From positions 1 to 64,000 of the forward strand of contig NZ_PPTH01000012.1 in assembly GCF_002954225.1 (NCBI RefSeq): DNA of 64,000 nucleotides. Reading direction: 5' to 3'. The position numbers and the translations under genes are program-made. The first letter of the stretch is position 1. The number at the start of each line of letters is the position of its first letter. The notes beneath the pieces were generated by a model, which was given only the letters and a program-made list of their open reading frames with translations, made no database searches and was not told where the DNA came from. Shown in pieces: positions 8,379 to 26,001 of the stretch. The stretch is from Arthrobacter ruber. GTDB taxonomy: Bacteria > Actinomycetota > Actinomycetes > Actinomycetales > Micrococcaceae.

Positions 8379-8406
8379 ACCTGACATAATGTAGATTATC
8401 GGCGAT
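8379..8406 (-). other. dif: dif-like chromosome-dimer resolution site (XerC/XerD target)
   Basis: Read on the minus strand this 28-mer is ATCGCCGATAA, TCTACA, TTATGTCAGGT: two 11-base arms around a 6-base centre, the standard dif layout. The arms share inverted ATAA and TTAT ends. As I recall it, the actinobacterial dif pattern reads CCGATAAT, two variable bases, then ACATTATGTCAAGT. This site matches at every conserved position except one A-to-G change in the right arm and the outermost left base. The site lies in a non-coding gap, as expected. Genes to its right are mainly on the minus strand, consistent with a fork arriving from that side. Confidence 0.8.
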
Positions 8407-8695
8407 TTGCTGCGGCTCCGGAAGGGGCGTCGCGGCGTCCCATACAGGTCCCTCCGACGTGGCACCTGTGGATCGGGAAAAGCGCGTGCTGCGCGATCCC
8501 TCCGAGCAGGACCGAGAGCCGACGTCCGCCGGTGGATGTCCCGCCCACCGGCGCCCGCGCCGTGCAGCGCGGGGCGCCGACAGGCGCGGCGCTACGGGGC
8601 CACAGTCATACGCCTGGCGGCGCCCGGATGTACCATTCCGCCGGTCTGCTCGGTCGGTTCCAGGGTGGCTGTGGGTCGATGACTACGAACCTCTA

Positions 8696-8738: not shown

Positions 8739-9911
8739 ATGCACTTGGAACTGAACCCGTACAACCCCGGATCAGGACTGCCGCCGCGCGTCATGGGAGG
8801 CCGCCAGAGGGAGATCGACGCGTTCGACCTCATCGTCGCACGCACCCAGCGCGATCTCCCGAACCGGGGCATGGTGCTGTCCGGCCTCCGTGGTGTCGGC
8901 AAGACGGTGCTCCTCAACTACCTCCGGGCCCATGCGGACAACCATGGCTGGTTCACCATCTGGCTCGAGGGCAAGCCCGAAGCCCAGGGCTTCACGGAGG
9001 TGCGGGAGAAATTCGCGCGGGAACTCACCTCGGCCGCCCGCCGGTACAACGGACCGTCGGGCAAGGACCGCCTCCGGCAGGCCTTCGGGACCATACAGTC
9101 GTTCAACGTCGCCCTCGGAGTCCCGGGCATCAAGGCGGAGCTGGACCTGGGCTCCGACCGGGCGAACTCGGGCACCATCGACATCGACCTCGAGGAGCTG
9201 GTCGAGGACGTGTCGCTCGCGCTGAAGGCCGACAGGAGCGCGTTCGCGGTCTTCATCGACGAGATGCAGGACCTCGACCACGAACTGCTCACCGCCCTCA
9301 TCACCGTGCAGCACGCAGCCGGTCAGCGGGGCTGGCCGTTCTACATCATCGGCGCCGGCCTGCCCAATCTCCCCACGACGCTCAGTGAGGCCAGGACCTA
9401 CGCCGAGAGGTTGTTCACCTACCGCACGATCGGTCCGCTCGACGACGACGATGCCGCCTATGCGCTGACCCGACCGGCCAGGGAGATGGGTGCTGAGTTC
9501 TCCGCGAGCGCCCTGGGGACCCTGCTCGACGCCTCCGGGCGGTATCCCTACTTCATCCAGGAGTTCGGGAAGGCGATCTGGGACGCGTCCCCCGGCACGC
9601 CGTTCACGGAGGAGGATGCCGAGGTCGCGGTCGCGATCGGTCGGAGCCAGCTCGACGCCGGCTTCTTCTCCTCCCGCTGGGGGCGGGCCACCCGCAGGGA
9701 ACGCGGCTACCTGAAGGCGATGGCGCACGACGGGGACGCGGGATCGAGCACCAGCCGGATCGCCGAGCGGCTCGGTGTGAAGATGACGGCACTGGGCCCG
9801 GCCAGGGCGCAGCTCATCAGCAAGGGCATCATCTACTCCCCCGAATACGGGCGGGTGGCCTTCACCGTGCCGGGAATGGCCGCCTTCATCCTCCGCCAGC
9901 ACGACGACTAG
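8739..9911 (+). CDS. AAA/archaeal-type ATPase with C-terminal winged helix
   Basis: A 390-residue P-loop ATPase. Walker A is GLRGVGKT (residues 49-56) and Walker B is AVFIDEMQD (about 168-176). A sensor-like segment (YIIGAGLPNLP) follows, then a C-terminal region with a winged-helix look (SRIAERLGVKMTALGPARAQLISKG). The layout resembles the ORC1-like or archaeal ATPase (STAND-related) families, which bind DNA or act as switches. The exact role is unknown. It is a single gene 333 bases from the dif-like site, convergent with the UvrA paralogue. Its promoter is leaderless and carries an inverted repeat. Confidence 0.75.
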   Translation: MHLELNPYNPGSGLPPRVMGGRQREIDAFDLIVARTQRDLPNRGMVLSGLRGVGKTVLLNYLRAHADNHGWFTIWLEGKPEAQGFTEVREKFARELTSAARRYNGPSGKDRLRQAFGTIQSFNVALGVPGIKAELDLGSDRANSGTIDIDLEELVEDVSLALKADRSAFAVFIDEMQDLDHELLTALITVQHAAGQRGWPFYIIGAGLPNLPTTLSEARTYAERLFTYRTIGPLDDDDAAYALTRPAREMGAEFSASALGTLLDASGRYPYFIQEFGKAIWDASPGTPFTEEDAEVAVAIGRSQLDAGFFSSRWGRATRRERGYLKAMAHDGDAGSSTSRIAERLGVKMTALGPARAQLISKGIIYSPEYGRVAFTVPGMAAFILRQHDD

Positions 9912-9977
9912 ACGCGGGCGGCCCACCCGGTCCTACCGCGGGCGGGACCCCGAACCGGGACGAGGCGGAGGTGCGGG

Positions 9978-12377
9978 TCACGCGCCCACGTACTCCGCGA
10001 GGTGCCGGCCGGTCAGCGTGGACCGCGACGCCACGAGATCCGCCGGGGTCCCCTCGAAGACGACCTTGCCGCCGTCGTGTCCCGCGCCCGGCCCGATGTC
10101 GATGATCCAGTCCGCATGCGCCATGACGGCCTGGTGGTGCTCGATGACGATCACCGACTTGCCGGCGTCCACGAGCCGGTCCAGCAGGCCGAGCAGGTTC
10201 TCGACGTCGGCCAGGTGCAGCCCGGCCGTGGGCTCGTCGAGGACAAGGATGCCGCCCTTCTCCCCCATGTGCGTGGCGAGCTTGAGGCGTTGACGCTCGC
10301 CGCCGGACAGGGTGGTCAGGGGCTGCCCGAGGCTGAGATACCCGAGTCCGACGTCGGACAGGCGGCCGAGGATCGCGTGGGCGGCCGGCACCCTCGCCTC
10401 GCCCGCCCCGAAGAACCCGGTGGCCTCGGTGACGGGCATCGCAAGGACCTCGCTGATGTCCTTGCCGTCGAGCCTGTACTCCAGCACCTCGGCCATGAAG
10501 CGCTTGCCGCCGCACACCTCGCAGGTCGTCGCGACGCCCGCCATCATGGCCAGGTCCGTGAAGATGACGCCGGCGCCGTTGCAGGTGGGGCACGCACCCT
10601 CCGAGTTGGCGCTGAACAGGGCGGGCTTGACCCCGTTGGCCTTCGCGAACGCCTTGCGGATGGACTCGAGCATCCCGGTGTAGGTCGCCGGGTTGCTGCG
10701 CCGGGAGCCCTTGATGGCCGTCTGGTCCACTGCGACCACGCCCTCCCGGGGCGACACGGAGCCGTGGATCAGCGAGCTCTTGCCGGATCCGGCCACGCCC
10801 GTGACCACGCACAGGACGCCGAGCGGGATGTCGACGTCGACGTCGCGCACGTTGTGGGAGGTGGCTCCCCTGATCTCCAGCTCCCCCCGGGGCGGGCGCA
10901 CGGAGGCCTTCAGGGCAGCCCGGTCGTCGAGGTGCCTGCCCGTCAGGGTTCCGCTGCGCCGCAGCCCCTCCACGGTTCCCTCGAAGCACACCGTGCCGCC
11001 CCCCGTCCCTGCGCCCGGGCCGAGGTCCACCGCATGGTCGGCGATCGCGATCATCTCGGGCTTGTGCTCCACCACGAGCACCGTGTTGCCCTTGTCCCGC
11101 AGGCGCAGCAGCAGGTCGTTCATGCGCTGGATGTCATGCGGGTGCAGCCCGATCGTCGGCTCGTCGAAGACGTAGGTGATGTCCGTCAGGGACGACCCGA
11201 GATGACGGATCATCTTGGTCCGCTGGGACTCGCCGCCCGACAGTGTGCCCGACGGGCGGTCGAGGCTGAGATAACCGAGCCCGATCTCCACGAAGGAGTC
11301 GAGGGTCTCCCCCAGTGCGGTCAGCAGCGGCGCGACCGACGGCTCACGCAGCCCCCGCACCCAAACCGCGAGGTCGCTGATCTGCAGGGCGCAGGCGTCG
11401 GCGATGCTGATCCCGGCGACCTTCGAGGACCGTGCAGCCTCGCTGAGGCGCGTCCCGTCGCAGTCCGGGCAGGTGGTGAAGGTGACCGCCCGGTCCACGA
11501 ACGCGCGGATGTGCGGCTGCATCGCCTCGCGGTCCTTGGACAGCATAGACTTCTGGATCTTCGGGATGAGGCCCTCGTAGGTGATGTTGATGCCATCCAC
11601 CTTGATCTTGGTCGGCTCCTTGTAGAGCAGGTCCTGCAGCTCCCGCTTCGTGAAGTCCCGGATGGGCTTGTCGGCGTCGAAGAAGCCCGTGGCGCTGTAG
11701 ATCCGGCCGTACCAGCCCTCCATGCTGTAGCCGGGGATGGTCAGCGCTCCGGCGTTGAGGGACTTCGTGTCGTCGTAGAGCTGCGTGAGGTCCATGTCCG
11801 TCACGGACCCCATGCCCTCGCACCGCGGGCACATGCCACCGGTCACGGTGAAGCTGCGGCGCTCCTTGACGGTGGTGCCGCCGCGTTCGATCGTGACGGC
11901 ACCGGCCCCGCTGACCGAGGCGACGTTGAAGGAGAAGGCCTGCGGGGGCCCGATCTGCGGCCGGCCCAGGCGCGAGAACACGATCCGCAGCATGGCGTTG
12001 ACGTCGGTGGCGGTGCCCACGGTGGAGCGCGGGTTGGCGCCCATGCGTTCCTGGTCCACGATGATCGCCGTCGTGAGCCCCTCGAGGACGTCCACCTCGG
12101 GCCGGGCGAGTGGCGGCATGAACCCCTGCAGGAAGGCGCTGTACGTCTCGTTGATCATGCGCTGCGACTCGGCGGCGATGGTGTCGAAGACCAGCGAGCT
12201 CTTGCCCGACCCCGAGACGCCGGTGAAGACCGACAGTCGGCGCTTCGGGATGTCGATGGTGATGTCCTTGAGGTTGTTCTCCCGTGCGCCCTGGACCCGG
12301 ATGAGGTCGTGGCTGTCCGCAGCGTGCGCCGCTCCCTCTGCCCCCGCCTGCTGCGCGTCCGTCGTGGCCGTGCTCAT
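9978..12377 (-). CDS. UvrA paralogue (short, excinuclease ABC subunit A-like ATPase)
   Basis: A 799-residue two-cassette ATPase of the UvrA family. The first cassette has GVSGSGKSSL and LSGGESQRTKM; the second has GVAGSGKSSL and LSGGERQRLKL. Cys pairs such as CPRCEGMG, CPDCDGTR and CPTCNGAG...CEVCGGKR mark the zinc modules. At about 800 residues it lacks roughly 150 residues of housekeeping UvrA, consistent with loss of the UvrB-interaction region. This class (UvrA2/DrrC-like) is linked to DNA-binding drug tolerance rather than core repair. The ATG at 12377 has GGAGG 4 bases before it. It is divergent from the peptide deformylase gene. Confidence 0.88.
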   Translation of the reverse strand: MSTATTDAQQAGAEGAAHAADSHDLIRVQGARENNLKDITIDIPKRRLSVFTGVSGSGKSSLVFDTIAAESQRMINETYSAFLQGFMPPLARPEVDVLEGLTTAIIVDQERMGANPRSTVGTATDVNAMLRIVFSRLGRPQIGPPQAFSFNVASVSGAGAVTIERGGTTVKERRSFTVTGGMCPRCEGMGSVTDMDLTQLYDDTKSLNAGALTIPGYSMEGWYGRIYSATGFFDADKPIRDFTKRELQDLLYKEPTKIKVDGINITYEGLIPKIQKSMLSKDREAMQPHIRAFVDRAVTFTTCPDCDGTRLSEAARSSKVAGISIADACALQISDLAVWVRGLREPSVAPLLTALGETLDSFVEIGLGYLSLDRPSGTLSGGESQRTKMIRHLGSSLTDITYVFDEPTIGLHPHDIQRMNDLLLRLRDKGNTVLVVEHKPEMIAIADHAVDLGPGAGTGGGTVCFEGTVEGLRRSGTLTGRHLDDRAALKASVRPPRGELEIRGATSHNVRDVDVDIPLGVLCVVTGVAGSGKSSLIHGSVSPREGVVAVDQTAIKGSRRSNPATYTGMLESIRKAFAKANGVKPALFSANSEGACPTCNGAGVIFTDLAMMAGVATTCEVCGGKRFMAEVLEYRLDGKDISEVLAMPVTEATGFFGAGEARVPAAHAILGRLSDVGLGYLSLGQPLTTLSGGERQRLKLATHMGEKGGILVLDEPTAGLHLADVENLLGLLDRLVDAGKSVIVIEHHQAVMAHADWIIDIGPGAGHDGGKVVFEGTPADLVASRSTLTGRHLAEYVGA

Positions 12378-12544
12378 GGTGCCTCCATCCTTCGGGGGCC
12401 GCCTCAGCGCGCCGCCGGTGTCCGTCTCGGGGAGCCGCGCCGCACAACCGGCCGCGGGCAGCACGTCTGATTCTCCGTCGTCGTGCCGCGACGAGCAATG
12501 GGGTGGGCGCCCGTTCCTGTCCGCGATTGTGATTTGCTGGAGGG

Positions 12545-13201
12545 ATGACGTCAGCTGCTCCGGGCAACCACCTCAGTCCCAACCTGCCCCCCGCGGCCCT
12601 CGTGGAGCTGGTGGGTGCCGTGCTGGCGCAGGACCTGCCGGCGATCGTACGCGCGGGCGACCCCGTGCTGCGCCGGCCTGCGCAGGACTTCGACGGGCAG
12701 CTCGACGACGCCGTCCTGGGGAACCTGATCTCCACGATGCGCCGGGTGATGCACGAGGCCCCGGGCGTGGGCCTCGCCGCACCGCAGATCGGCATCCCCC
12801 TGAGGATCGCCGTGCTGGAGGATCAGGGCGTCCAGGACCCGGAGGTCGCCGCGGCACGGGCCCGCACTCCCCTGCCCTTCACGGTGATCATCAACCCCCG
12901 CTACGAAGCCGCGGACGGGAGCGTGGCCTCGTTCTACGAGGGCTGCCTCTCCGTTCCCGGCTACCAGGCCGTCGTCGAGCGCCCCGCGAGCATCACCGCC
13001 ACCTACACACGGCCCGACGGCGTCACCGTCACGGAGGGCTTCGAGGGCTGGCCGGCCCGGATCGTCCAGCACGAGACCGACCACCTGAACGGGCAGCTGT
13101 ACCTGGACAGGGCGGTCCTGCGGTCCCTCAGTGCCGACCAGGAGCATCCCCGGTGGGCGCAGCCGACCGTCGACGACGCGCGGCGGGGCCTCGGTTTCTG
13201 A
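12545..13201 (+). CDS. def: Peptide deformylase
   Basis: Removes the formyl group from the N-terminal Met of new proteins using a metal ion. All three motifs are present: GVGLAAPQIG (about 77-86), EGCLS (about 137-141) and QHETDHLNG (about 179-187), giving the Cys and two His metal ligands and the catalytic Glu. At 218 residues it is longer than the 160-190 of most deformylases because of a 25-residue N-terminal extension and a longer loop before IINPRY. The GGAGGG directly abuts the ATG, too close for an ideal ribosome site. A second deformylase next to fmt is usual in this group, so this may be the accessory copy. Confidence 0.92.
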   Translation: MTSAAPGNHLSPNLPPAALVELVGAVLAQDLPAIVRAGDPVLRRPAQDFDGQLDDAVLGNLISTMRRVMHEAPGVGLAAPQIGIPLRIAVLEDQGVQDPEVAAARARTPLPFTVIINPRYEAADGSVASFYEGCLSVPGYQAVVERPASITATYTRPDGVTVTEGFEGWPARIVQHETDHLNGQLYLDRAVLRSLSADQEHPRWAQPTVDDARRGLGF

Positions 13202-13220
13202 GCCCCACCACGCCGTGCGC

Positions 13221-15263
13221 CTACCGGGCGGCGCTGTCAGCCGGGTTGGCGTCGGTGGGCAGGTACCGCGCCCACCAGCGCAGGATGTGCTCGAAGCGCT
13301 GCCGGCGGTGCCAGGGAGTGCCCGACCGTGAGAGCTCGTGCGTCTCGCCGGGGAACACGAGCAGCTCGGTCTCGACACCCTGCTTCTTCAGCGCCGTGTA
13401 GTACCGCTGTGCCTGCTCGATCGGGCACCGCAGATCCTCCTCGGAGTGGATGACGAACGCCGGGGTCCGCACCTGTCCGATCTGCGCGAACGGGTTCTGC
13501 TCCGCCACGTGCGCGGGATCCGTGCCCGTGTACTGCTCCGAGAAGAACCAGCCGATGTCCGATGATCCCACGAACGACGGCGGATCGAGATACCCCCGCT
13601 CGACGATCGCCGCCTCGAACCGGTGGTCGTGGGCGATGGTCCATGCCGTCAGGTAGCCCCCGTAGGAGCCGCCCATGACGCCGAGGCGTCCGGTGTCCAT
13701 GGCATCGAACTCCGCGAGCGCGCCGTCCAGGAAGCCGAGGACGTCGTCGAGGTCCACCGTGCCCATCGCCTCCTTGATGACCCGCCCGTGCTCCTGCCCG
13801 TAGCCGGCGGCGCCGCGGGGGTTGCACAGCAGCACCGCATAACCCGCGGCGGCGTACACCTGGGCCTCGTCGAAGTACCCCCACCCGTACTGGGCGAAGG
13901 GGCCGCCGTGGATGACGAGCAGCACCGGGTGCGGGCCCTCCCCCTCGGGCAGGACCACCCATCCGTGCACGGGCGTGCCGTCGGGTGCCGGGTAGGAGCG
14001 CTCCTGCAGGTCTCCCACGCGCGTCTGCTCGCGCAGCGGGGCGGAGAAGTCCGAGACCGGCCGCAGCGAGGAGCCGTCGACGACGGCGACGTCCCCGGAG
14101 GTGGACGGGTCGGTGTAGGACACGACGACGGCGCCGCCCGCCGCAGCGGCCCCGGTCACCACGGTGGGGCCGGTGACGAGCGTGTCGCTCCGCCCCGCCG
14201 CCGAGACGCGCAGCAGCTCGCCCGCGCCGCGTGAGCGGTTGACGACGAGGACGGAGTCCGGTCCGTCGGCGACGATCTCCTGGACCTCTCCGAGGTCGAC
14301 GGTCTCCGGGTCGGTGAGGCGCCGCACGTCCTGCGGGTCCGCCAGCGGCAGGACGTAGAGGGCCGTGTTGCGGGCCACGAAGTCCAGCCCCGACGGGGAC
14401 AGGTCCGAGGCCAGGAAGAACAGCGACGTGCCGTCGGCGCCGGGCCGGGGTGCGCTGCAGCCGAGCCGGGTGTCCCCGGTCAGGTTCGTCAGCTGCCGGG
14501 GGTCGCCGCCGTCGAGGTCCACCGAGTGGATGTCGGACACGAGCGTGGAGTCCGCGTCCGCCGCGAGGGCGGCGGTGAAGAGGATGCGCCGTCCGTCGGT
14601 GGAGAAGACCGGTTCGAGGTGATCGGCGTCGGCCGTCGTCACCTGCCGGGCGGCGGGCACCGCGCCCTGCTCCTCCAGGGCGCCCGGTCCGTCGTCGTGC
14701 TGCTGCCCGCGCCGGCCGACGGCGGCGACGAACGGTTCGGCATCGAGGTCGGGCACGGCCACGATGAACACCTGCGAGCGCTTGTCCGTCGTGTAGCCCA
14801 GGCCGTTCATGCGGTACTTGTACCCGGTGATCAGGCGTGGGTCCTCCTGGCCAGCACCCACGCCGTCCAGGGTGCCGTAGCGTCCGGTCTCCGCCACCCT
14901 CGCGGCGAAGACGATCGTCCGCGCGTCGGGTGCGATGTCGAAGTGGGCGACGCCCAGGGGCTGGTCCGTCAGCTGCACGGGCTCGCCGCCGGCGGCGCGC
15001 ACCGCGAACAGCTGCGGTTTGCCGCCCGGCGCCGCCCGGAGGAACACGAGGAGCTCGCCGTCGCGCGAGTACTGCGGGGCGGTGTCACGGAATCCCCGGG
15101 TCAGCCGTCGGCGGCCGCCCTCGAACGTGAGCTCCCACAGCTGGCCCACATAGGAGTCGGCGCGGAGGTCGGGGCGGGTCGCGGCGACCACGAGGCGGGA
15201 GCCGTCGGGGTGCAGCGTCGGGGTGCCCGTGGTGGTCAGGAGTTCGATCTGGTGTGGTTTCAC
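13221..15263 (-). CDS. S9 family prolyl-oligopeptidase-like serine peptidase
   Basis: A 680-residue protein with an N-terminal beta-propeller of WD40-like repeats (about 1-400, with LHPDGSRLVV and PQYSRDGELLVF) and a C-terminal alpha/beta-hydrolase domain. The catalytic triad is visible: Ser in MGGSYGGYL, Asp in HSEEDLRC and His in GETHELSR. Such enzymes cleave short peptides or acyl-amino acids in the cytoplasm. No signal peptide is present. I placed the start at the GTG at 15263 because a good promoter (TTGACT-N17-TCTAGT) ends 7 bases before it. Reading frame further upstream overlaps the divergent methyltransferase gene. Confidence 0.9.
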   Translation of the reverse strand: MKPHQIELLTTTGTPTLHPDGSRLVVAATRPDLRADSYVGQLWELTFEGGRRRLTRGFRDTAPQYSRDGELLVFLRAAPGGKPQLFAVRAAGGEPVQLTDQPLGVAHFDIAPDARTIVFAARVAETGRYGTLDGVGAGQEDPRLITGYKYRMNGLGYTTDKRSQVFIVAVPDLDAEPFVAAVGRRGQQHDDGPGALEEQGAVPAARQVTTADADHLEPVFSTDGRRILFTAALAADADSTLVSDIHSVDLDGGDPRQLTNLTGDTRLGCSAPRPGADGTSLFFLASDLSPSGLDFVARNTALYVLPLADPQDVRRLTDPETVDLGEVQEIVADGPDSVLVVNRSRGAGELLRVSAAGRSDTLVTGPTVVTGAAAAGGAVVVSYTDPSTSGDVAVVDGSSLRPVSDFSAPLREQTRVGDLQERSYPAPDGTPVHGWVVLPEGEGPHPVLLVIHGGPFAQYGWGYFDEAQVYAAAGYAVLLCNPRGAAGYGQEHGRVIKEAMGTVDLDDVLGFLDGALAEFDAMDTGRLGVMGGSYGGYLTAWTIAHDHRFEAAIVERGYLDPPSFVGSSDIGWFFSEQYTGTDPAHVAEQNPFAQIGQVRTPAFVIHSEEDLRCPIEQAQRYYTALKKQGVETELLVFPGETHELSRSGTPWHRRQRFEHILRWWARYLPTDANPADSAAR

Positions 15264-15270
15264 CCTTCCG

Positions 15271-15299
15271 ACTAGACCCGAAACGGTGGCCTGAGTCAA
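15271..15299 (-). promoter_or_regulatory. Leaderless promoter of the S9 peptidase gene
   Basis: On the minus strand TTGACT (15294-15299), a 17-base spacer and TCTAGT (15271-15276) stand 7 bases before the GTG. Its -35 overlaps the -35 region expected for the divergent methyltransferase promoter. Confidence 0.6.
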
Positions 15300-15320
15300 C
15301 GGTAGGGCGGAGAGTCTCTC

Positions 15321-15326
15321 TAGGAT
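15321..15326 (+). promoter_or_regulatory. -10 element TAGGAT, leaderless start of rlmA
   Basis: TAGGAT ends 6 bases before the GTG at 15333. The -35 position (about 15298-15303) falls on the -35 of the divergent peptidase promoter. Confidence 0.5.
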
Positions 15327-15332
15327 GGGACG

Positions 15333-16220
15333 GTGCCTCCGCTCCCCCGCGACCTCCTGGTCTGCCCTGTCTGCGCCTCCCCGCTGGAGGAGACGGACCG
15401 CACCCTGGCCTGCGCGCAGGGTCACCGGTTCGATGCGGCCCGTCAGGGCTACTTTAACCTGCTGACAGGCAGGGGCTCGCCGTTCGAGGGCGATACCGCC
15501 GAGATGGTGGACGCACGGGAGCAGTTCCTGGGCTCGGGCGCCTACGAGCCTCTGCGCCGCGCGGTCGTCGCGGCAGCGCTCGCGCACGCATCGGCACCCG
15601 GCGTGGTCCTCGATGCCGGTGCAGGCACGGGGTACTACCTGGACGGGCTCGCGGGCACGGCTCCGGGGGTCTTCCCCGTCGCGCTCGATCTGTCCAAGGC
15701 GGCCCTGCGGCGTGCCGCCCGCAGGCTCCCCGGCGGCATCAGCATCGTCTGGGACGTCTGGCGCCCGCTGCCGTTCGCCTCCGGCTCGGTGGACGTCCTC
15801 CTGAACGTCTTCGCACCCAGGAACGCCGACGAGTTCGTCCGCGTGCTGGCACCGGGCGGGTGCGTCGTCGTCGTCACGCCGCGGCCGGGCCACCTCGCCG
15901 GGCTCGAGGCGGTGGGACCGCTCCTGTCCGTGCCCGCATACAAGGCCGACGACGTCCTCGCCTCCTTCGGGGGCGCGCTGGTGGAGGCCGCCCGCGAGGA
16001 CCTCGACTACGTGATGTCCCTGCCACAGGACCTGGCGCGCTCGGCGCTGGTCATGGGACCCGCGGCGCGCCATGCACGGGCCGGGCAGGCGGGTCCCGTG
16101 GTAGGGCCGGCCGCGCCCCTCGAGGTCGCGGCACGCTTCACGGTCCAGGTGCTGGTCGCGCCGGGGTTCTCGCCCGACCGGGAGGGGCCCATACGGGATC
16201 CCGAAGGCACGGAAGGGTAA
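15333..16220 (+). CDS. rlmA: 23S rRNA (guanine) N1-methyltransferase, RlmA family
   Basis: A 295-residue SAM-dependent methyltransferase. The N-terminal zinc finger CPVC...C...GHRFD (residues 10-30) followed by QGYFNLL is the signature of the RrmA/TlrB family, which methylates G745 or G748 in hairpin 35 of 23S rRNA. The SAM-binding loop is VVLDAGAGTGYYL (about 89-101), and NVFAPRNADEFVRVLAPGG matches the family's motif IV region. TlrB members give tylosin tolerance; housekeeping members modify the ribosome, and the two cannot be told apart here. Confidence 0.85.
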   Translation: MPPLPRDLLVCPVCASPLEETDRTLACAQGHRFDAARQGYFNLLTGRGSPFEGDTAEMVDAREQFLGSGAYEPLRRAVVAAALAHASAPGVVLDAGAGTGYYLDGLAGTAPGVFPVALDLSKAALRRAARRLPGGISIVWDVWRPLPFASGSVDVLLNVFAPRNADEFVRVLAPGGCVVVVTPRPGHLAGLEAVGPLLSVPAYKADDVLASFGGALVEAAREDLDYVMSLPQDLARSALVMGPAARHARAGQAGPVVGPAAPLEVAARFTVQVLVAPGFSPDREGPIRDPEGTEG

Positions 16221-16324
16221 CGACTGCCCCGGGCCGGGGTCCGGAGCCTAGGTTATGTCGGAGGCGTTTGCCAGAATGGGAGGACCGGCAGCTTCCTGCG
16301 GCCGGGATACGAGGGGGATGCTCG

Positions 16325-16810
16325 ATGGAGTGGTTGCTCGACAACGGCTGGATCCTGTGGCTGGTGCTGTTCCTGGGACTGGCTGCCGTGGAGACCCTAA
16401 CCCTCGACCTGTTCTTCCTCATGCTGTCCGTCGGCGCGCTGGCCGCCCTCGTCGCGACGTTCGCCGGCGCGGGGCTCGTCCTGCAGATCGTCGTCTTCGC
16501 GGTCGTGTCCCTGCTCATGATCCTGCTCGTCCGGCCCATCGCCGTCCGCCACCTCCGCAAGGGCCCGGCGGACCAGCTGAACAACATCGACCGTCTCGTC
16601 GGGGCCTCGGCCCTCGCCCTGGAACCCGTGACGGCCCACTCCGGGACGGTGAAGATCGGCGGCGACACCTGGACCGCCCGCTCGGCCGACGGCGCCGCCC
16701 TTCCCGCCGGGACGCGCCTGTCCGTCGCGAGGATCGACGGCGCCACCGCCGTCGTCGAGCCCGCTGCCTCGCGGGACGACCGCCCCGCGCCTCCCGTCGC
16801 CGACGCGTAG
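16325..16810 (+). CDS. NfeD family membrane protein
   Basis: A 161-residue protein with an N-terminal block of three to four membrane helices (WILWLVLFLGLAAVETLTLDLFFLMLSVG onward) and a C-terminal soluble OB-fold (LVGASALALEPVTAHSGTVKIGGDTW). NfeD proteins pair with stomatin-like proteins in membrane microdomains, and the stomatin gene follows 75 bases downstream. The ATG has GAGGGG 8 bases upstream. Confidence 0.88.
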   Translation: MEWLLDNGWILWLVLFLGLAAVETLTLDLFFLMLSVGALAALVATFAGAGLVLQIVVFAVVSLLMILLVRPIAVRHLRKGPADQLNNIDRLVGASALALEPVTAHSGTVKIGGDTWTARSADGAALPAGTRLSVARIDGATAVVEPAASRDDRPAPPVADA

Positions 16811-16885
16811 GCGCCCCACTCTTCCCGCACCCCCGGGCCACACACCGGCCCTGACGGGTGCACCCACCACAACGCAAGGGGATCC

Positions 16886-17818
16886 ATGAACGGCTCCGCC
16901 GGAGGAATCGGACTCACCATCGTCCTGATCGTCCTCGTCATCTTCGTCCTGGTCGTACTCGTGAAGTCGGTCAGGATCATTCCGCAGGCACGCGCCGGCG
17001 TCGTCGAGCGGCTCGGAAAGTACCAGAGGACGCTGAACCCGGGCCTGACCATCCTGATCCCGTTCGTCGACCGGCTGCTGCCGCTGCTCGACCTGCGCGA
17101 GCAGGTGGTCTCCTTCCCTCCGCAGCCCGTGATCACCGAGGACAACCTCGTGGTGTCCATCGACACGGTGGTCTATTTCCAGGTCACGGACCCGCGTGCG
17201 GCGACCTACGAGATCGCCAACTACATCCAGGCCGTGGAGCAGCTGACCACCACCACCCTGCGGAACGTGGTCGGCGGGCTGAACCTCGAGGAGGCCCTCA
17301 CCTCGCGCGACCAGATCAACGGGCAGCTCCGCGGCGTCCTCGACGAGGCCACGGGTAGGTGGGGCATCCGGGTGGGCCGCGTGGAGCTCAAGGCCATCGA
17401 CCCGCCCCATTCCATCCAGGACTCGATGGAGAAGCAGATGCGTGCCGAGCGCGACCGCCGCGCCGCGATCCTCACGGCGGAGGGCACCAAGCAGTCCGCG
17501 ATCCTGACCGCCGAGGGCCAGCGTCAGGCCGCCATCCTGGCCGCAGAGGGTGACGCGAAGGCCGCGATCCTCCGCGCCGACGGCGAGGCGCAGGCCATCC
17601 ACAAGGTGTTCGACGCGATCCACAAGGGCAACCCGACGCAGAAGCTTCTTGCCTACCAGTACCTGCAGACGCTGCCAAAACTGGCCGATGGTTCGGCGAA
17701 CAAGCTCTGGATCATCCCGAGCGAGGTCGGTGAGGCCCTGAAGGGCATCGGCAACGTGCTGGGGACCACCACGCCGGACTCCCCCGCCGACGGACCGGAG
17801 ATGGTCTCCCGCGGCTGA
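16886..17818 (+). CDS. SPFH domain (stomatin/prohibitin-like) membrane protein
   Basis: A 310-residue protein with one N-terminal membrane anchor (GLTIVLIVLVIFVLVVLV), an SPFH domain (about 28-190, with RAGVVERLGKYQRTLNPGL) and a coiled-coil tail rich in EG-A-I-L repeats (AAILTAEGTKQSAILTAEG). This is the QmcA/stomatin layout. The family forms large membrane rings that organise proteases or other membrane proteins. AAGGGG precedes the ATG by 5 bases. It follows nfeD and ends just before a strong hairpin, so the two genes form a closed operon. Confidence 0.9.
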   Translation: MNGSAGGIGLTIVLIVLVIFVLVVLVKSVRIIPQARAGVVERLGKYQRTLNPGLTILIPFVDRLLPLLDLREQVVSFPPQPVITEDNLVVSIDTVVYFQVTDPRAATYEIANYIQAVEQLTTTTLRNVVGGLNLEEALTSRDQINGQLRGVLDEATGRWGIRVGRVELKAIDPPHSIQDSMEKQMRAERDRRAAILTAEGTKQSAILTAEGQRQAAILAAEGDAKAAILRADGEAQAIHKVFDAIHKGNPTQKLLAYQYLQTLPKLADGSANKLWIIPSEVGEALKGIGNVLGTTTPDSPADGPEMVSRG

Positions 17819-17831
17819 TCCGCCGCCCGGG

Positions 17832-17871
17832 CACGAGGGCCGCCACCGCTCCGGCGGTGGCGGCCCTCGTG
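17832..17871 (+). terminator. Hairpin after the NfeD/stomatin operon
   Basis: A 17-bp perfect stem (17832-17848 with 17855-17871) closes a 6-base loop, just after the stomatin stop codon. No T tract follows, which is common for actinobacterial terminators. Confidence 0.7.
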
Positions 17872-17959
17872 GTTCCCGGCAGGTGCCGGCAAGTGCCGGC
17901 GTGCCGGCGGCGTCACGCGGGCTGACCTGTATACTTAGGTGTTTACCCCTTCGCCTGCG

Positions 17960-17985
17960 GGAACATCCCCGCACGGCATGGTGTT
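17960..17985 (+). promoter_or_regulatory. SigR/SigH-type stress promoter upstream of rbpA
   Basis: GGGAAC (17959-17964), exactly 18 bases, then GTT (17983-17985) fits the GGAA(T/C)-N18-GTT pattern of the thiol-oxidative-stress sigma factor. In Streptomyces rbpA belongs to this regulon, which supports the call. A conventional -10 (TATACT, 17930-17935) lies just upstream and may give basal expression. Confidence 0.6.
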
Positions 17986-18119
17986 GTACAGACGGCTTCC
18001 CTTCCACCTCCCGGTGGCAGCGGTACCGGGTGTGTCGGTGACACGGCCCGGGGATCTTCGGGAAAGAACAGCGGCAACGGCTTCCGGCGAACGGGGGCCA
18101 CGGTGAGTAGGAGACAATC

Positions 18120-18467
18120 ATGAGCGATCGCAGCCTGCGCGGCATGCGCCTCGGAGCGCAGTCCATGGAGACGGAATCCGGCGTCGAGCCCGCTCCGCGG
18201 CAGCGGGTCGAGTACCGGTGCGAGGACGGCGAGCGGGTCTTCGTGACCTTCTCGTCCGAGGCCGAGATCCCGGCCACCTGGGTCTCGAAGACCGGCAAGG
18301 AGGCCCTCCTGGTCGACGGCGAGAAGCCTGACACCTCGAACGACAAGCCCGTGCGCACGCACTGGGACATGCTCCTCGAGCGCCGCTCCGTCGAGGAACT
18401 CGAGCAGATCCTGCAGGACCGCCTGACCATCCTGCGCGAGCGTCGTGGAGAGCGCCGCTCGGCCTAG
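18120..18467 (+). CDS. rbpA: RNA polymerase-binding protein RbpA
   Basis: A 115-residue actinobacterial transcription factor that binds RNA polymerase and the principal sigma factor and stabilises open complexes. Recognised from MSDRSLRGMRLGAQSME at the N-terminus, the central fold around YRCEDGERVFVTFSSEAEIPATW, and the C-terminal sigma-interaction helix (THWDMLLERRSVEELEQIL). AGGAG lies 7 bases before the ATG. The leader of about 130 bases is preceded by a SigR/SigH-like promoter. Confidence 0.95.
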   Translation: MSDRSLRGMRLGAQSMETESGVEPAPRQRVEYRCEDGERVFVTFSSEAEIPATWVSKTGKEALLVDGEKPDTSNDKPVRTHWDMLLERRSVEELEQILQDRLTILRERRGERRSA

Positions 18468-18501
18468 CCGATGGACGCGACGCGATCCTGGCGTCGGGCA
18501 T

Positions 18502-18539
18502 GCAGAAGGGGCACCCGCGGTGGCGGGTGCCCCTTCTGC
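18502..18539. terminator. Bidirectional hairpin between rbpA and the mannosyltransferase gene
   Basis: A 17-bp perfect stem (18502-18518 with 18523-18539) with the 4-base loop GGTG sits between two convergent genes and can serve both. Confidence 0.75.
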
Positions 18540-18558
18540 GTCCGGGTGGGTGCCGGGG

Positions 18559-19284
18559 TCAGCCCCGTCCGGTGAGTGTGCGCCAGCGGGCACCGAGTCC
18601 CCACCGGGTGACATTGGCGATGGCCTCGAAGACGATGTTGCCGCTCATCTTCGAATCACCGAGCTCACGCTCGACGAACGTGATCGGGACCTCCACGATC
18701 GTCAGGCGCTGCCGGGCGACCCGGAAGGTCATATCGACCTGGAAGCCATACCCCACCGATGCCACCGCGGACAGGTCCAGGGCCTCCAGGGTGGAACGGC
18801 GGAAGGCCCGGAACCCGGCGGTGATGTCGCGCACGGGCAGGCCCAGCATCAGGCGCGAGTAGGTGCTGCCCGCGCGCGAGAGCAGCTTGCGGTGCGCGGG
18901 CCAGTTCACCACACTGCCCCCGGGCACCCAGCGGCTGCCGATCACCAGGTCCGCCCGGTCCACCGCATCCAGCAGCGAGGGCAGTTGTTCGGGTCTGTGG
19001 GAGCCATCGGCGTCCATCTCCACCAGCACGTCGTAATCCCGGGCCAGGGCCCACCGGAAACCGGCGATGTACGCCGCGCCCAGGCCCTCCTTGCCCGTGC
19101 GGTGCAGCACGTGGACCTGCCCGTCGGCCGCCGCTGCCCGGTCGGCGAGATCACCGGTACCGTCGGGGCTGTTGTCGTCGACGATCAGGACGTCCGACGC
19201 CGGGACCGCCGCACGCAGGCGGGCGAGGGTCAACGGGAGCGACTCGATCTCGTTGTAGGTGGGGATGATCGTGACGACTCGCAC
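18559..19284 (-). CDS. Polyprenol monophosphomannose synthase (GT2 family)
   Basis: A 241-residue glycosyltransferase that moves mannose from GDP-mannose to polyprenol phosphate at the cytoplasmic face of the membrane, for lipoglycan and protein mannosylation. Motifs: IIPTYNE at the N-terminus, VDDNSPDGT, the metal-binding MDADGSH, and the acceptor-side [12 protein letters not shown]. It lacks the membrane domain of eukaryotic-type or fused Ppm1 proteins, and no apolipoprotein N-acyltransferase gene is adjacent as in mycobacteria. The GTG start has GAAAGG about 10 bases before it. Confidence 0.9.
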
Positions 19285-19716
19285 GCAGCCGGGGCCTTTC
19301 CATCAGGGGATGCGCAACGCGCAGGGACCGCTCCGCACACAGCGGAACGAGTCCAAGCATAGGCGACGCGCCCGCCGCATCCGGGTAACCCCCGCCGCCC
19401 CCGGACAAGGGCGGGCAGATCCACGCGTCTTCGTACCGGTGCCGGCACGGATGACGCCACCGTTCTCTACCGACCCGTGGACCCGCCCTTGAGTGCCAGC
19501 TCCGCCAAGATGGGCAACACGCGCCGTTTCGAAGGCCGATGCATTGCGCTCAGGAGACCAGCCGGGTGCCCTCCGTCAGGAGGTCATCCAACCCGTAACG
19601 CAAAAGCTTACGTGCTGTGGAGTGAGAGTCAACAGCGCCCTGACCTGCGGCGATGTGCTTCGTCGCAGGTCAGGAGGGTGCGGGTCCCGGCGACTGATTC
19701 CCGCATCGGGGCAGCG
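19285..19716. other. Intergenic region between the mannosyltransferase and amidohydrolase genes
   Basis: About 430 bases without a convincing gene. It holds the hairpin at 19639-19674. I see no tRNA, repeat or clear promoter in the rest. Confidence 0.4.
19639..19674 (-). terminator. Hairpin downstream of the amidohydrolase gene
   Basis: A 15-bp stem (19639-19653 with 19660-19674, one G-T pair) around a 6-base loop lies about 45 bases after the stop codon of the leftward amidohydrolase gene. Confidence 0.6.
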
Positions 19717-21354
19717 TCAGGAGGCGGGGAAACCGTCGGCCGCGAACAGGCGCCGTCCCTCGTGCACGGTCTCGAGGCAGAGCGGCGCGTTCTCCGTGTC
19801 CAGGGCCGGCAGCAGAGGTGTGCCCGCCCTGGGATCGGTGCTCCAGGACTGCACGCGGTTGTCCGGTGTCTGCACCATGAGTTCGTCGACTTGCCACACC
19901 GCGAAGGACGCCGGGGTCCCTGGGGCGAGCTGGCCCATCATCGGACTGCGGCCCGCGAGCCGCCACCCCGCCCTGCTGTGGCCGATGAACGCGGCGCGGG
20001 CGGAGATGTTCTCCGAGCCGTTGCTGTGCTGCAGGCATGCGCGGACCGACGCCCAGGGATCGAGCGGTGTGACGGGGCTGTCCGAGCCGAGCGCCAGGAG
20101 GACCCCCGCGGACAGGAGGGACGCGAAACGGTTCATCCCGGCGCTGCGCCCCCCGAGCCGCTGCCCGTACAGGCCGCCGTCGATCCCCCACAGGGCGTCG
20201 AAGGCCGGCTGTCCGCTGACGGCGACGCCGTGGTGCACCAGGGCGTCGATGGCGGCGTCGTCGGCGAGTTCTACGTGTTCGAGGCGGTGGCGCGCCCGGC
20301 GCACGGCCTCCACGCCCAGCTCCCCCGCCGTCACCTCGAGCCCCCGCAGGACGACGTCGAGCCCGGCATCGCCGATGACGTGGAAGCCGGCCTGGACGGT
20401 CTCGGCGGTCGTGGCGAGCAGGTGGGCGGCGACGGCGTCCTCGTCGAGGTAGAGAGTCCCGCGGCTGCCGGGATCGTCGCTGTAGGGCTCCCGCAGCGCC
20501 GCGGTGCGCGAGCCGATGGAACCGTCGACGTTCAGGTCCCCGGCCAGGCCCGCGAGCCTGCCGCCGAAGCCCTGCATGAGCTCGCGGACCTCCTCGCGGG
20601 ACGAGGTGAGCTGCGCCCAGTACGGGATGACCTCCGGCAGGGGGATCTCGCGCTGCGGGCCGTCGAGCGACAGGAGCGTCTCCAGGTCCTCCCGGGGCGC
20701 GATATGCGGGGCGGCCATCTCCGTGACCGCGACGTAGCCCCGGCTCGCGGCATGCAGCAGCGCGGCCCGCTGGTAGGTGCTGCGCTGGTCGGGGGTGAGG
20801 CTGCGGGTCGCCCGCCGTGCGGCCTCGTGCGCCGCGCGCACCACGAAGCCGTCGTCCCACCCGTCGAGGCCGGCGAGGCCCAGGCCCGCCGCGAGGGCGC
20901 CGGACACCACCGCGGAGTGGATGTCGGCCCGTACCAGGTAGACGAGGGCGCCCCCGCCGGCGCGGTCGAGTTCCGCAGCCGTCGGCACGCGCCGCTCCGG
21001 CCAGGACGACTCGTCCCAGCCGAAGCCGAGGATCGTCGCGGGTCCGGCCGTGGCCGCGGCGGACACCGCGGCCAGGAGCTCCGCGAGGGAGCGGCAGGCC
21101 GTCAGGTCGAGCGATCCGAGGGCGATCCCCGTCTCCGTCGTATGCGTGTGGGCATCGACGAACCCGGGCGTGATCAGGGCACCGTCCAGGTCGACGCTGC
21201 GCACGCCGGGCCCCTCGAGGTTCGTCGCAGCGTGTTCGGTCCCCACCCAGGCAACGGTCCCGCCGTCGACGAGCATGGCGGTGGCGAAGGGATCGGCGGG
21301 GCTGTAGACGGAGCCGTTGCGGTAGAGGACGGGGGTGGGGCGTGGGCTGGGCAT
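19717..21354 (-). CDS. Amidohydrolase family protein (YtcJ-like)
   Basis: A 545-residue metal-dependent hydrolase. The N-terminal beta-sandwich (YRNGSVYSPADP) leads to the metal-binding GFVDAHTHTTETG. Later features include FHVIGDAGLD, RLEHVELADD and the terminal LGSDSPVTPLDPW, all typical of the YtcJ branch of the amidohydrolase_3 family. Substrates of this branch are mostly unknown. No signal peptide is seen. No strong ribosome site precedes the ATG, which lies 47 bases after the helicase stop codon, so it is probably the last gene of the HelY transcript. Confidence 0.85.
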   Translation of the reverse strand: MPSPRPTPVLYRNGSVYSPADPFATAMLVDGGTVAWVGTEHAATNLEGPGVRSVDLDGALITPGFVDAHTHTTETGIALGSLDLTACRSLAELLAAVSAAATAGPATILGFGWDESSWPERRVPTAAELDRAGGGALVYLVRADIHSAVVSGALAAGLGLAGLDGWDDGFVVRAAHEAARRATRSLTPDQRSTYQRAALLHAASRGYVAVTEMAAPHIAPREDLETLLSLDGPQREIPLPEVIPYWAQLTSSREEVRELMQGFGGRLAGLAGDLNVDGSIGSRTAALREPYSDDPGSRGTLYLDEDAVAAHLLATTAETVQAGFHVIGDAGLDVVLRGLEVTAGELGVEAVRRARHRLEHVELADDAAIDALVHHGVAVSGQPAFDALWGIDGGLYGQRLGGRSAGMNRFASLLSAGVLLALGSDSPVTPLDPWASVRACLQHSNGSENISARAAFIGHSRAGWRLAGRSPMMGQLAPGTPASFAVWQVDELMVQTPDNRVQSWSTDPRAGTPLLPALDTENAPLCLETVHEGRRLFAADGFPAS

Positions 21355-21401
21355 GGGGTTGCGGCGAGGCTTTCTGTGGTCGGTGCGTTCCCGGAACGGG
21401 A

Positions 21402-24224
21402 CTATTCACTGATGTTCGAGTATGCCACCACGCCGCGGCGGACCAGCCGGATCGCCCTGACGCACGTCTGCTGCAGGCCCCCCGGGAGGTCCGGCACCTT
21501 GGCCAGCTGGTCGAGGAGGTCGATGACCTGCTTCGACCAGCGGACGAAGTCCCCGGCAGCGAGTTCGGTCCCGCTCAGGGCGGCCTGCAGGGACCGGCCC
21601 TGCGCCCACTTGAACATCGGCCAGACGAGCGAGAGCTCCGGTTCGCTGGTGACGGGCAGCCGGTGCTGCTCCTCGACGTCGTTGAGCTGTGACCATTGCC
21701 GGATGATCGTCTCCACGGAACCCTCGAGGGACACGCTCGGCATGACCGGCCGCATGCCGCGCTCCTCGCGCTTCGCCTGGTACACGAGCACCGTGGTGAG
21801 GGCGGCGAGCTCCGCGGCGTCGAGGTCGCTGAAGGCACCCTCCTCGACGCAGAGCGCGATCAGGAGGTCCTTGTCGCCGTAGATGCGGCGCAGCTTCTGG
21901 CCCGAGGCGCTCACGGTCACGGCGTCGTCGGTGTACTCGAGGTACCCGTAGTGGCCGAGGACCTCGGAGACGCGGTCGAACGTCTTGGCGATGGTGTTGG
22001 TGCGGCCACGGATCTGCCCCGCGAGGTTGTCCGTCTCCCGGCGCAGCTTCCACCAGCGCTCCGCCCATCGCGCGTGCTGCTCCCGTTCGCTGCAGCCGTG
22101 GCAGGGGTGCGCCCTGAGCCGGCGCCGCAGGTCCGTGATGGCGCGCTCCTCGGCGGCCGCCGACGCAGAATGGCTCGCCGACACGCGGTCCGCACCGCGC
22201 CGGGGCGGCCGGTTCTCGGCCAGCGCGTTGCGCAGCGAGGAGGTCAGGTCACGGCGGTCCTTGGGGCTGCGCACGCTGAAGTGCTTGGGGATGCGGATAC
22301 GGGAGAGAACCTCGACGGGGCCGTCCAGGTCCTGCACGCCCACCCGGCGGATCTGCGTCTCCAGGGTGAGCACGGTGGGACGGGGCTCGCGGGACGTGTC
22401 ACCGTCGAGGACGACGGCGTAGCCCTGGCTCCTTCCCCCGGGGACGTCGATCACGTCACCCGGACGAAGGGCCTCGAGTGAGGTCTCGGCCGCCGAGCGC
22501 AGGTTCCGGGACCTGTCCCGCGACGCCCTCGACTCGAGGTCGGACAGCTCGCGCCGGAGGTTCGCGTACTCGCGGAAGTCGCCGAGGTGGCACGTCATGG
22601 ACTTCTCGTAGCCCTTGAGCGATTCCTCGCGGCTGCGCACCTGCTTGGCGAGGCCGACGACGGACCGGTCCGCCTGGAACTGGGCGAAGGACGTCTCGAG
22701 GATCTCGCGGGAGCGCTCCTGCCCGAACTGCGCCATGAGGTTGATGCTCATGTTGTACGTCGGCCGGAAGCTCGAGTTCAGCGGATAGGTGCGGCGGGAG
22801 GCGAGGCCGGCCACCGCGCCGGGATCGGTGCCCGGCTGCCACAGGACCACGGCGTGGCCCTCGACATCGATCCCGCGCCGTCCAGCCCGCCCGGTGAGCT
22901 GCGTGTATTCCCCCGCCGTCACGTCCACGTGGGCCTCGCCGTTGAACTTGTCCAGCTTCTCGAGCACCACGGTCCGGGCTGGCATGTTCACCCCGAGGGC
23001 GAGGGTCTCCGTCGCGAACACGGCCTTGACCAGTCCCGCGGCGAACAGCCGCTCCACGATCTCCTTGAAGGTCGGCAGCATCCCGGCATGGTGCGCGGTG
23101 AAGCCACGGATGAGGCCCTCCCGCCACGTCCAGAAGCCGAGGATCTCGAGGTCGTCGCGCGGGATGTCCTGTGTGGCCTCGTCGATGGTCTCGCTGATCT
23201 CGTCGCGCTCGTCCTCCGTGGTGAGCCACAGCCCGGCGTGCAGGCACTGCGTCACCGCAGCCTCGCACCCCGCCCGGGAGAAGATGAACGTGATGGCGGG
23301 CAGGAGATCGGAGCGGTCCAGGGCGCTGATCACCTGCGGACGCGTGGCCCGCCGAACCACCGACATCTGCTGGGGGCCGCCTCGCCCGCTGCGCGACTTC
23401 CCGCGGCGGCCTCCCGCACCCCAGTTGGCCCGCTGGTTGAGCCGGATCTCGTTGCTCGCCAGGTCCAGCAGTTCGGGATTGACGTCGTACTGGTCGCGTG
23501 CGCCGGTCTCGGCCCCGGCGGGTGCGGCCTCGTCGAAGGCGATGTCCCCGGCGAACAGGTCGATCAGGTTCTGCCCCACCATCACGTGCTGCCACAGCGG
23601 GACGGGGCGGTGCTCGGACACGACGACGTCCGTGTCGCCGCGGACGGTGTCCAGCCACGCGCCGAACTCCTCGGCGTTGGACACCGTGGCGCTCAGCGAC
23701 ACGAGCTTGACCTCGGTGGGCAGGTGGATGATGACCTCCTCCCATACCGCTCCCCGGAAGCGGTCGGCGAGGTAGTGCACCTCGTCCATGACCACGTAGC
23801 CGAGGTTGTCGAGGGCGTCGGAGTTCGCGTACAGCATGTTCCGCAGCACCTCGGTGGTCATCACGATCACGTCGGCGTCGGCGTTGATGCTCGTGTCCCC
23901 CGTCAGCAGTCCCACGCGGTCGCTGCCGTGCACAGCCGCCAGCTCCGAGTACTTCTGATTGCTGAGGGCCTTGATGGGCGTGGTGTAGAAGGCCTTGAGG
24001 CCGTGCTGCAGGGCCATGAAGACCGCGAACTCGCCCACCACGGTCTTGCCGGCGCCCGTGGGCGCAGCCACGAGGACACCCCTGCCCGCCTCGAGGGCCG
24101 TGCACGCCTCCCGCTGGAACGGATCGAGCTCGAAGTCCAGGGTCTGCTCGAACCGGAACAGCTGGGTCCGTGAACGCTCCGTACGGGCCTTGGCAGCGGC
24201 ATATCTCTCCGCGGGGGTGGTCAT
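21402..24224 (-). CDS. helY: DEAD/DEAH-box RNA helicase, HelY (Ski2/Mtr4-like)
   Basis: A 940-residue superfamily 2 helicase. Walker A APTGAGKT lies near residue 56, the box II motif DEVHYLAD follows near 145, and motif VI is LTGRAGRRGID. The long C-terminal part includes the DSHCT domain of Ski2-like helicases. Mycobacterial helY likewise lies beside tatC, tatA, pafC and pafB, matching this neighbourhood. Two ATG codons are adjacent. The second (24224) is 6 bases after TAGGGT and fits the leaderless pattern of the region, so I chose it; the first (24227) would add one Met. Confidence 0.93.
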   Translation of the reverse strand: MTTPAERYAAAKARTERSRTQLFRFEQTLDFELDPFQREACTALEAGRGVLVAAPTGAGKTVVGEFAVFMALQHGLKAFYTTPIKALSNQKYSELAAVHGSDRVGLLTGDTSINADADVIVMTTEVLRNMLYANSDALDNLGYVVMDEVHYLADRFRGAVWEEVIIHLPTEVKLVSLSATVSNAEEFGAWLDTVRGDTDVVVSEHRPVPLWQHVMVGQNLIDLFAGDIAFDEAAPAGAETGARDQYDVNPELLDLASNEIRLNQRANWGAGGRRGKSRSGRGGPQQMSVVRRATRPQVISALDRSDLLPAITFIFSRAGCEAAVTQCLHAGLWLTTEDERDEISETIDEATQDIPRDDLEILGFWTWREGLIRGFTAHHAGMLPTFKEIVERLFAAGLVKAVFATETLALGVNMPARTVVLEKLDKFNGEAHVDVTAGEYTQLTGRAGRRGIDVEGHAVVLWQPGTDPGAVAGLASRRTYPLNSSFRPTYNMSINLMAQFGQERSREILETSFAQFQADRSVVGLAKQVRSREESLKGYEKSMTCHLGDFREYANLRRELSDLESRASRDRSRNLRSAAETSLEALRPGDVIDVPGGRSQGYAVVLDGDTSREPRPTVLTLETQIRRVGVQDLDGPVEVLSRIRIPKHFSVRSPKDRRDLTSSLRNALAENRPPRRGADRVSASHSASAAAEERAITDLRRRLRAHPCHGCSEREQHARWAERWWKLRRETDNLAGQIRGRTNTIAKTFDRVSEVLGHYGYLEYTDDAVTVSASGQKLRRIYGDKDLLIALCVEEGAFSDLDAAELAALTTVLVYQAKREERGMRPVMPSVSLEGSVETIIRQWSQLNDVEEQHRLPVTSEPELSLVWPMFKWAQGRSLQAALSGTELAAGDFVRWSKQVIDLLDQLAKVPDLPGGLQQTCVRAIRLVRRGVVAYSNISE

Positions 24225-24230
24225 CATTCC

Positions 24231-24236
24231 ACCCTA
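24231..24236 (-). promoter_or_regulatory. -10 element TAGGGT, leaderless start of helY
   Basis: TAGGGT on the minus strand ends 6 bases before the second ATG (24224). No ribosome site is present. Confidence 0.5.
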
Positions 24237-24351
24237 GACGCTCGGCACCGGCCCGGCATCCGGCGTCTGGGCGGACCATCCCGGCGCGGGGCGTGCTTCC
24301 GCCGATGCCGCCGCGGCCGGCCCGCCGGGACGGCCGGCAGGACGTCCGCTG

Positions 24352-25191: not shown

Positions 25192-25206
25192 GGGGACGTT
25201 CCGGGC

Positions 25207-25608
25207 CTACTGGCTGGTGGAGGAGGTACTGCCGTGCTGCGGACCGCCCGCGGGGTACTGCCCGTCGGCGCGTCCCTCAGCGTGTCCCTGGTTCCGGGCC
25301 TCGCCCGGGTAGGGCGCCTGCCGGCCGGGCTGACCGGGCTGACCGTACGGTTGGCCCTGGGGCTCGCCCTGGTGCTGGCCGGGCTGGTAGGTGGGGGTGT
25401 AGGTCTGCGGTGCCGGGTTGGTGACGACACGGCCCTCGACGGGGTCCGTGCCCGGGTCGTTGTTCTCGTCCTTCATCTGCTTCACCTCGGACTTGAAGAT
25501 CCGCAGGGACTGGCCCACGCTGCGCGCCAGACCAGGCAGCTTCGGAGCGCCGAACAGAACGATCGCAAGAACGATGATGATGACGATGTGCCAGCCTTCG
25601 AGCCTCAT
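25207..25608 (-). CDS. tatA: Sec-independent protein translocase subunit TatA
   Basis: A 133-residue protein with a short N-terminal membrane helix (WHIVIIIVLAIVLFG), the FG hinge with APKLPGLARSVGQSLRIFKSE, the amphipathic helix, and a long tail rich in Gln, Pro and Gly. TatA forms the size-variable pore of the twin-arginine route. The tail of about 80 residues is longer than in most TatA proteins and is probably disordered. The ATG at 25608 has GAGGA 7 bases upstream, better than the TTG two codons earlier. tatC follows 15 bases downstream. Confidence 0.94.
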   Translation of the reverse strand: MRLEGWHIVIIIVLAIVLFGAPKLPGLARSVGQSLRIFKSEVKQMKDENNDPGTDPVEGRVVTNPAPQTYTPTYQPGQHQGEPQGQPYGQPGQPGRQAPYPGEARNQGHAEGRADGQYPAGGPQHGSTSSTSQ

Positions 25609-25995: not shown

Positions 25996-26001
25996 GGCTT
26001 C

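Follow-up and report, generated by a model that had tools for sequence, protein, structure and literature searches.

A 28-bp sequence read as the chromosomal dif site of an Arthrobacter genome, and the polar octamer that reverses at it

We describe a 28-bp sequence, almost certainly the dif site belonging to a circular Arthrobacter chromosome. It lies in a 64,000-nucleotide stretch of DNA (hereafter the window), which corresponds to bases 1-64000 of contig C7 (224,578 bp) in a draft assembly of 18 contigs and 3.66 Mb that is rated 100% complete (G000, the own genome). We read the sequence as dif because it occurs as a single copy, its 28 bp are conserved amid flanks that do not align, it is placed opposite dnaA in most measurable relatives, the genome encodes XerC, XerD and FtsK, and an oriented octamer, CGGGGGAG, reverses there. 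On this evidence, both the identity of the site and its place at the chromosome terminus hold as proposed in the preliminary description. The site is unremarkable for a dif, and publications on Corynebacterium, another genus of the phylum, already contain the polar word.

The plus strand at 8379-8406 reads ACCTGACATAATGTAGATTATCGGCGAT, and the minus strand reads ATCGCCGATAA-TCTACA-TTATGTCAGGT in an 11-6-11 layout; the coordinates, the strand and the layout given earlier all match the sequence. The site is composed as follows.

8379..8406, minus strand: dif site, 28 bp, running from XerC arm to XerD arm (sequence, copy number and conservation)
8396..8406, minus strand: XerC arm, ATCGCCGATAA (sequence; arm order by the known dif layout)
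8390..8395, minus strand: 6-bp central region, TCTACA (sequence)
8379..8389, minus strand: XerD arm, TTATGTCAGGT (sequence)

Allowing up to three mismatches, the 28-mer has one match in the window, compared with none in 100 dinucleotide-preserving shuffles, and it is the sole copy across the 18-contig, 3.66-Mb assembly. The preliminary description had proposed this genome search and listed two outcomes that would speak against dif, multiple copies and a closer match at another place; neither was found in the assembly at this threshold. Within the window, no second 28-mer lies within ten mismatches of the site.

Of the 38 genomes of the genus, the own one among them, 34 contain the 20-base core CGATAATNNACATTATGTCA; 33 have it as a single copy and G030 has two. 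The strict core is missing from G018, G020, G022 and G033. Searching with the 28-mer at three mismatches gained one site in G022 and none in the other three, whose assemblies are in 100 contigs (G018), in 210 contigs (G033) or 68% complete (G020). In a named genome collection, the exact 28-mer was found in five contigs, all from Arthrobacter (sp. Br18, A. cheniae, A. echini, A. agilis UMCV2 and A. agilis 4041), and the A. agilis UMCV2 contig is titled chromosome. We aligned 31 of the 35 genus sites, leaving out L017 (ends too close), G029 and both sites of G030. Mean information is 1.98 bits over the 28 dif positions versus 0.14 in the flanks, the former value being partly by construction since 18 of the 28 positions were fixed in the search pattern; the free positions are therefore the fair evidence of conservation. 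Among the free bases of the XerC arm, the first three vary across the 31 loci, G occupies position four in 30 and C position five in all. Only the second and third bases of the central region are free, and these are C in 30 and T in 26 loci. In the XerD arm, TTATGTCA is fixed by the pattern, and the free last three bases are A (19) or G (12), G (16) or C (15), and T (31). The own 28-mer carries the commonest base at 27 of 28 positions, and the flanks do not align among the genus loci, whereas the 28 bp are conserved.

In the wider class, an exact 19-base core is present in 137 of 393 genomes, once in each except G367, which has two. This pattern is strict, so misses are no proof of absence; all of the f24/g35 genomes in the class list (5.8-11 Mb) lack the exact core under it. 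In the available text of Kono et al. (2011, PMC3025954), dif was predicted in 66 of 66 single-chromosome Actinobacteria, with the XerD arm more conserved than the XerC arm. The sites described there are likewise 28 bp long, mostly non-coding and unique, and Arthrobacter adds one more species.

The distance between dif and dnaA was measured in relatives only, because in the own draft dnaA lies on contig C8 and dif on C7. Both lie on one contig in ten relatives, and in eight of these the distance is 0.478-0.528 of the contig (for G024 and G032, of the main contig only).

dnaA-dif distance as a fraction of the contig: G004 0.52, G005 0.519, G013 0.503, G024 0.519
dnaA-dif distance as a fraction of the contig: G028 0.478, G031 0.513, G032 0.528, G037 0.51

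The other two relatives are G002, with dif 0.71 from dnaA, and G006, in which 1.93 Mb separate the two; this is 0.62 of the 3.12-Mb contig they share and roughly 0.49 of the genome size listed, 3.9 Mb. G028 additionally shows 17 DnaA-family matches below the cut-off, in frames of 266-304 aa and several with identical scores, which we would guess are perhaps IstB-kind transposition helper proteins.

Proteins matching the recombination machinery are encoded in the own genome. XerD scores 340.2 bits against an NCBIfam cut-off of 329.6, and XerC, for which this is the best family, scores 321.5 bits, yet 13.7 under the cut-off of 335.15. A third, less similar tyrosine recombinase is also encoded. 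For FtsK, the alpha, motor and gamma domains were all matched, 4TM only weakly, and the gamma domain scores 77.8 bits against a cut-off of 30.6.

An octamer scan for bias toward dif, performed in G013 and a sampled G005, ranked CGGGGGAG first, with 103 copies toward dif and 6 away. In the own contig, three plus-strand and no minus-strand copies lie to the left of dif, and no plus-strand and 27 minus-strand copies to the right, giving 30:0 in total. All 15 copies in the window alone are directed at dif.

3543-3550, 4794-4801 and 6389-6396, plus strand: three copies of CGGGGGAG, pointing right toward dif
9836..61983, minus strand: twelve copies of CGGGGGAG (first 9836-9843, last 61976-61983), pointing left toward dif

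Relative to dif, the strand switch falls between -2003 and +1451 bp in the own contig and between -2381 and +979 bp in G013, where 39 of 39 copies obey the rule over 400 kb (±200 kb). In the sampled G005, the switch is located between stretches at 1.90 and 2.00 Mb, and dif at 1.96 Mb. When single positions of the octamer are substituted, the word comes out as approximately H-R-GGGGAG. The octamer is denser near the terminus, with 14 copies in the first 62 kb to the right versus 13 in the remaining 154 kb of C7, a small sample from one contig. Counted by contig orientation, the whole own genome contains 196 forward and 346 reverse copies, and the backwards control gives 89 and 107. Among the matches listed, C6 carries 14 plus and 1 minus copies, and on C8 the copies up to 79 kb number 2, both minus (dnaA is at 62 kb), followed from 93 kb by 38 plus and 4 minus copies; C5 is mixed, with 2 plus and 6 minus copies among those listed. 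Besides its mixed polarity, C5 (45 kb) has a 1361-aa open frame with an FtsK/SpoIIIE match, and it may be a plasmid or island.

G002 is an exception. Its word is mostly on the plus strand to about 1.0 Mb and on the minus strand at 1.4-2.4 Mb; around dif, RGGGGAG is plus just to the left (9:2) and weakly minus to the right (2:4), and farther out the word is on the minus strand at 2.55-2.7 Mb and has returned to the plus strand by 3.2 Mb. The assembly is 89% complete. These several switch points, together with the distance of 0.71, may be those of a rearranged or misassembled chromosome.

We extended the analysis to 30 genomes from 20 families, chosen from the 137 for spread and flank length, taking flanks of at most 20 kb to the left and right of dif; one arm is short in five of them. 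Near dif, 275 copies of CGGGGGAG point toward the site and 2 away, and toward exceeds away in all 30. The corresponding counts are 393:3 for YGGGGGAG, 312:31 for GHGGGGGA and 595:19 for RGGGGAG. As for the reversed controls in the same genomes, GAGGGGGC gives 24:21 and GAGGGG[AG] 173:117, the latter being mildly biased.

Such words are already in use in Corynebacterium, where, according to the available text of four reports, the AIMS octamers (T/C)GGGGGAG and G(A/T/C)GGGGGA served to place dif (PMC2830990, PMC3022926, PMC3219685, PMC3350403). In C. aurimucosum they number 856 on the leading and 61 on the lagging strand together, in a report that credits Hendrickson and Lawrence 2006 (PMC2830990). 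The Arthrobacter word is the same octamer with the same polarity toward dif. Unlike the Corynebacterium work, the Arthrobacter word was found de novo, extended to 30 genomes in 20 families and set beside an invariant helix of the FtsK gamma domain. The functions of most such octamers are unknown according to the available text of PMC5993296.

The immediate surroundings of dif were described earlier as a gene-free gap, and a simple gene caller indeed called no gene of at least 90 aa between 7862 and 8739, though mechanical ORFs overlap the gap: a 123-aa minus-strand ORF (8094-8465) runs across dif, and an uncertain 70-aa ORF terminates at 8323. A change in coding-strand preference at the site had also been claimed. 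The genes to the right are mostly on the minus strand, as described (6 plus and 23 minus in the first 40 kb), but on the left, where the contig extends for only 8.4 kb, 2 genes are plus and 5 are minus, and therefore no change is visible at dif in the window. Between dif and a uvrA-like gene sits an AAA ATPase gene (8739-9911). The uvrA-like gene (9978-12464) encodes an 828-aa protein that scores 668.1 bits, below the UvrA family cut-off of 729.8, and is perhaps a UvrA paralogue. Farther to the right, a tandem array at 17444-17596 (33-bp unit, 4.6 copies, 72% matches) is located within a called gene (16886-17818).

The AAA ATPase gene bears on a different reading, which we consider very improbable, namely that a plasmid, a phage or a Xer-using integrative element has the 28-mer as its dif-like attachment site. 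In favor of such an origin, no relative of the gene was found by tblastn (1e-10) in three syntenic dif loci (A. echini L092, Br18 L090 and G013 L059), and in A. echini dif lies approximately 70 bp beyond the uvrA-like match; the gene may be a lineage-specific insertion at the terminus. This support is weakened by the genes to the left of dif, which likewise had no match in these loci, and by L091, L093 and L094, which matched none of the nine query proteins. Moreover, only one dif-like sequence is present in the window (up to ten mismatches) and in the genome (up to three), so there is no second attachment site, and a mobile-element origin was rejected for want of a second copy near the first. 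Two further sequences, at 20368 and 43049, differ from the XerC half-site by one mismatch and are without a XerD partner. The core is single in 33 of 38 genus genomes, the exact 28-mer is on a contig titled chromosome, and the polar word reverses at the 28-mer, all of which argue for a chromosomal dif site instead.

GC skew had also been proposed as a check, and the own contig shows no clear switch: skew is +0.069 over the 8.4 kb to the left and about zero over the 215 kb to the right, where the bins stay positive to +80 kb. In G013, GC skew changes sign at dif (20-kb bins), and the sampled G005 is without pattern. Intergenic skew toward dif is +0.061 and +0.016 for the own left and right arms, +0.017 and +0.019 for G013, and +0.003 and -0.004 for G005. 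It is thus positive in five of six arms, as is the third-codon term, for which the own right arm is negative. The sign mostly fits and the size is tiny, and we rejected GC skew as too weak a proof of the terminus. The absence of a clear switch would suit a retired dif with the working terminus elsewhere in the genome, a reading even less credible than the attachment site, given that no other copy exists at up to three mismatches, that the polar word points here from both sides without exception in the own contig, and that the arms equal those in other species.

In E. coli, the guide word KOPS, GGGNAGGG, is a G-rich oriented octamer that reverses at dif. Its polarity had been suggested as a further check, and it proved barely polar here, with 41 copies toward dif and 28 away in the own contig. 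The counts are 54:31 in G013, 58:67 in G005 and 165:107 in the 30 class genomes, a weak bias at most, and GGGNAGGG was rejected as the guide motif here since the counts are near balance. The words thus differ between the two systems (165:107 for GGGNAGGG vs 595:19 for RGGGGAG in the 30 class genomes), and their gamma domains are homologous (PDB 2ve8/2ve9, 2j5o and 2j5p for the E. coli KOPS and FtsK gamma system). An FtsK gamma domain was detected in all 30 genomes searched (27 of the 30 chosen class genomes plus G000, G005 and G013), with 31 matches. Reading one domain per genome and leaving out the second match of G212, we found GFAKAGRLMD in 30 of 30. Where these actinomycete domains carry GFAKAGR, the solved chains 2j5o and 2j5p carry GYNRAAR. 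One of these two chains is from Pseudomonas and the other from E. coli. Because of the polarity of the word and the invariant GFAKAGR helix, we infer that the FtsK gamma domain may be the reader of RGGGGAG. No literature on FtsK and KOPS in Arthrobacter was found within a limited paper collection.

The FtsK/XerCD mechanism of dimer resolution is established in E. coli, and dif in Arthrobacter would operate in the same manner. An odd number of crossovers would join two sister chromosomes as a dimer, and the septal DNA pump FtsK would load on oriented guide words and travel on both arms in the direction of dif. There it would trigger strand exchange between the two dif copies, by XerD and then by XerC, yielding two monomers. 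On both arms the word guiding it toward dif would be RGGGGAG, with CGGGGGAG as the best octamer, rather than the E. coli word GGGNAGGG. FtsK-activated XerCD recombination probably takes place at the Arthrobacter dif.

Additionally, a short pyrimidine-rich box lies next to the XerC arm.

8420..8428, plus strand: flanking box, GGAAGGGGC (minus strand GCCCCTTCC), starting 22 bp before the XerC arm; conserved among loci

Within 32 bp outside the XerC arm, CCCYYYY is present in 18 of 31 genus loci, compared with 0 of 31 in each of seven farther control windows, and in 17 of 90 class loci, compared with 0, 0, 2, 1, 0, 0 and 0. The tighter CCCCTYYC occurs in 10 of 31 genus and 12 of 90 class loci, starting mostly at -24 to -21 and in some cases at -12 or -11. 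By eye, the box is patchy by family: many loci of f22, f30 and this genus have it, and few of f25, f23 and f4 do. Five-base information peaks at 0.66 bits; across the control 870 bp it averages 0.089 and does not exceed 0.24. Weaker enrichment is seen within 40 bp on the XerD side (CCCYYYY, 15 seen and 1.1 expected; RRRRGGG, 8 seen and 0.5 expected), and therefore the specificity of the box for the XerC side is incomplete. A hairpin or terminator was rejected as its cause: across 31 genus and 60 class loci, mean folding energies close to dif are unexceptional compared with those at greater distance, and no common stem was found. A copy of the polar word was likewise rejected: the box is not RGGGGAG, its complement points away from dif, and GAAGGGGC is unbiased in G013 (9:8).

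These observations raise a broader, tentative idea, which we regard as possible and on balance doubtful: that a single segregation code, RGGGGAG, is common to Actinomycetes and recognized by an FtsK gamma helix that does not vary (GFAKAGR for GYNRAAR), and that several lineages add an undescribed accessory box (approximately GCCCCTTCC/CCCCTCTC, with its start 11-24 bp before the XerC arm), so that their dif is more than the bare 28 bp. If this is true, the box could be, for example, the binding site of a protein that orders XerC or that keeps FtsK or transcription off the synapse.

In summary, the dif site almost certainly places the terminus of the Arthrobacter chromosome to the base. A practical rule follows for these high-GC genomes: the terminus is located well by CGGGGGAG together with the dif core, and poorly by GC skew or by the E. 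coli KOPS. If FtsK reads the word, an invariant gamma helix paired with one word would provide a natural test of the FtsK recognition code.
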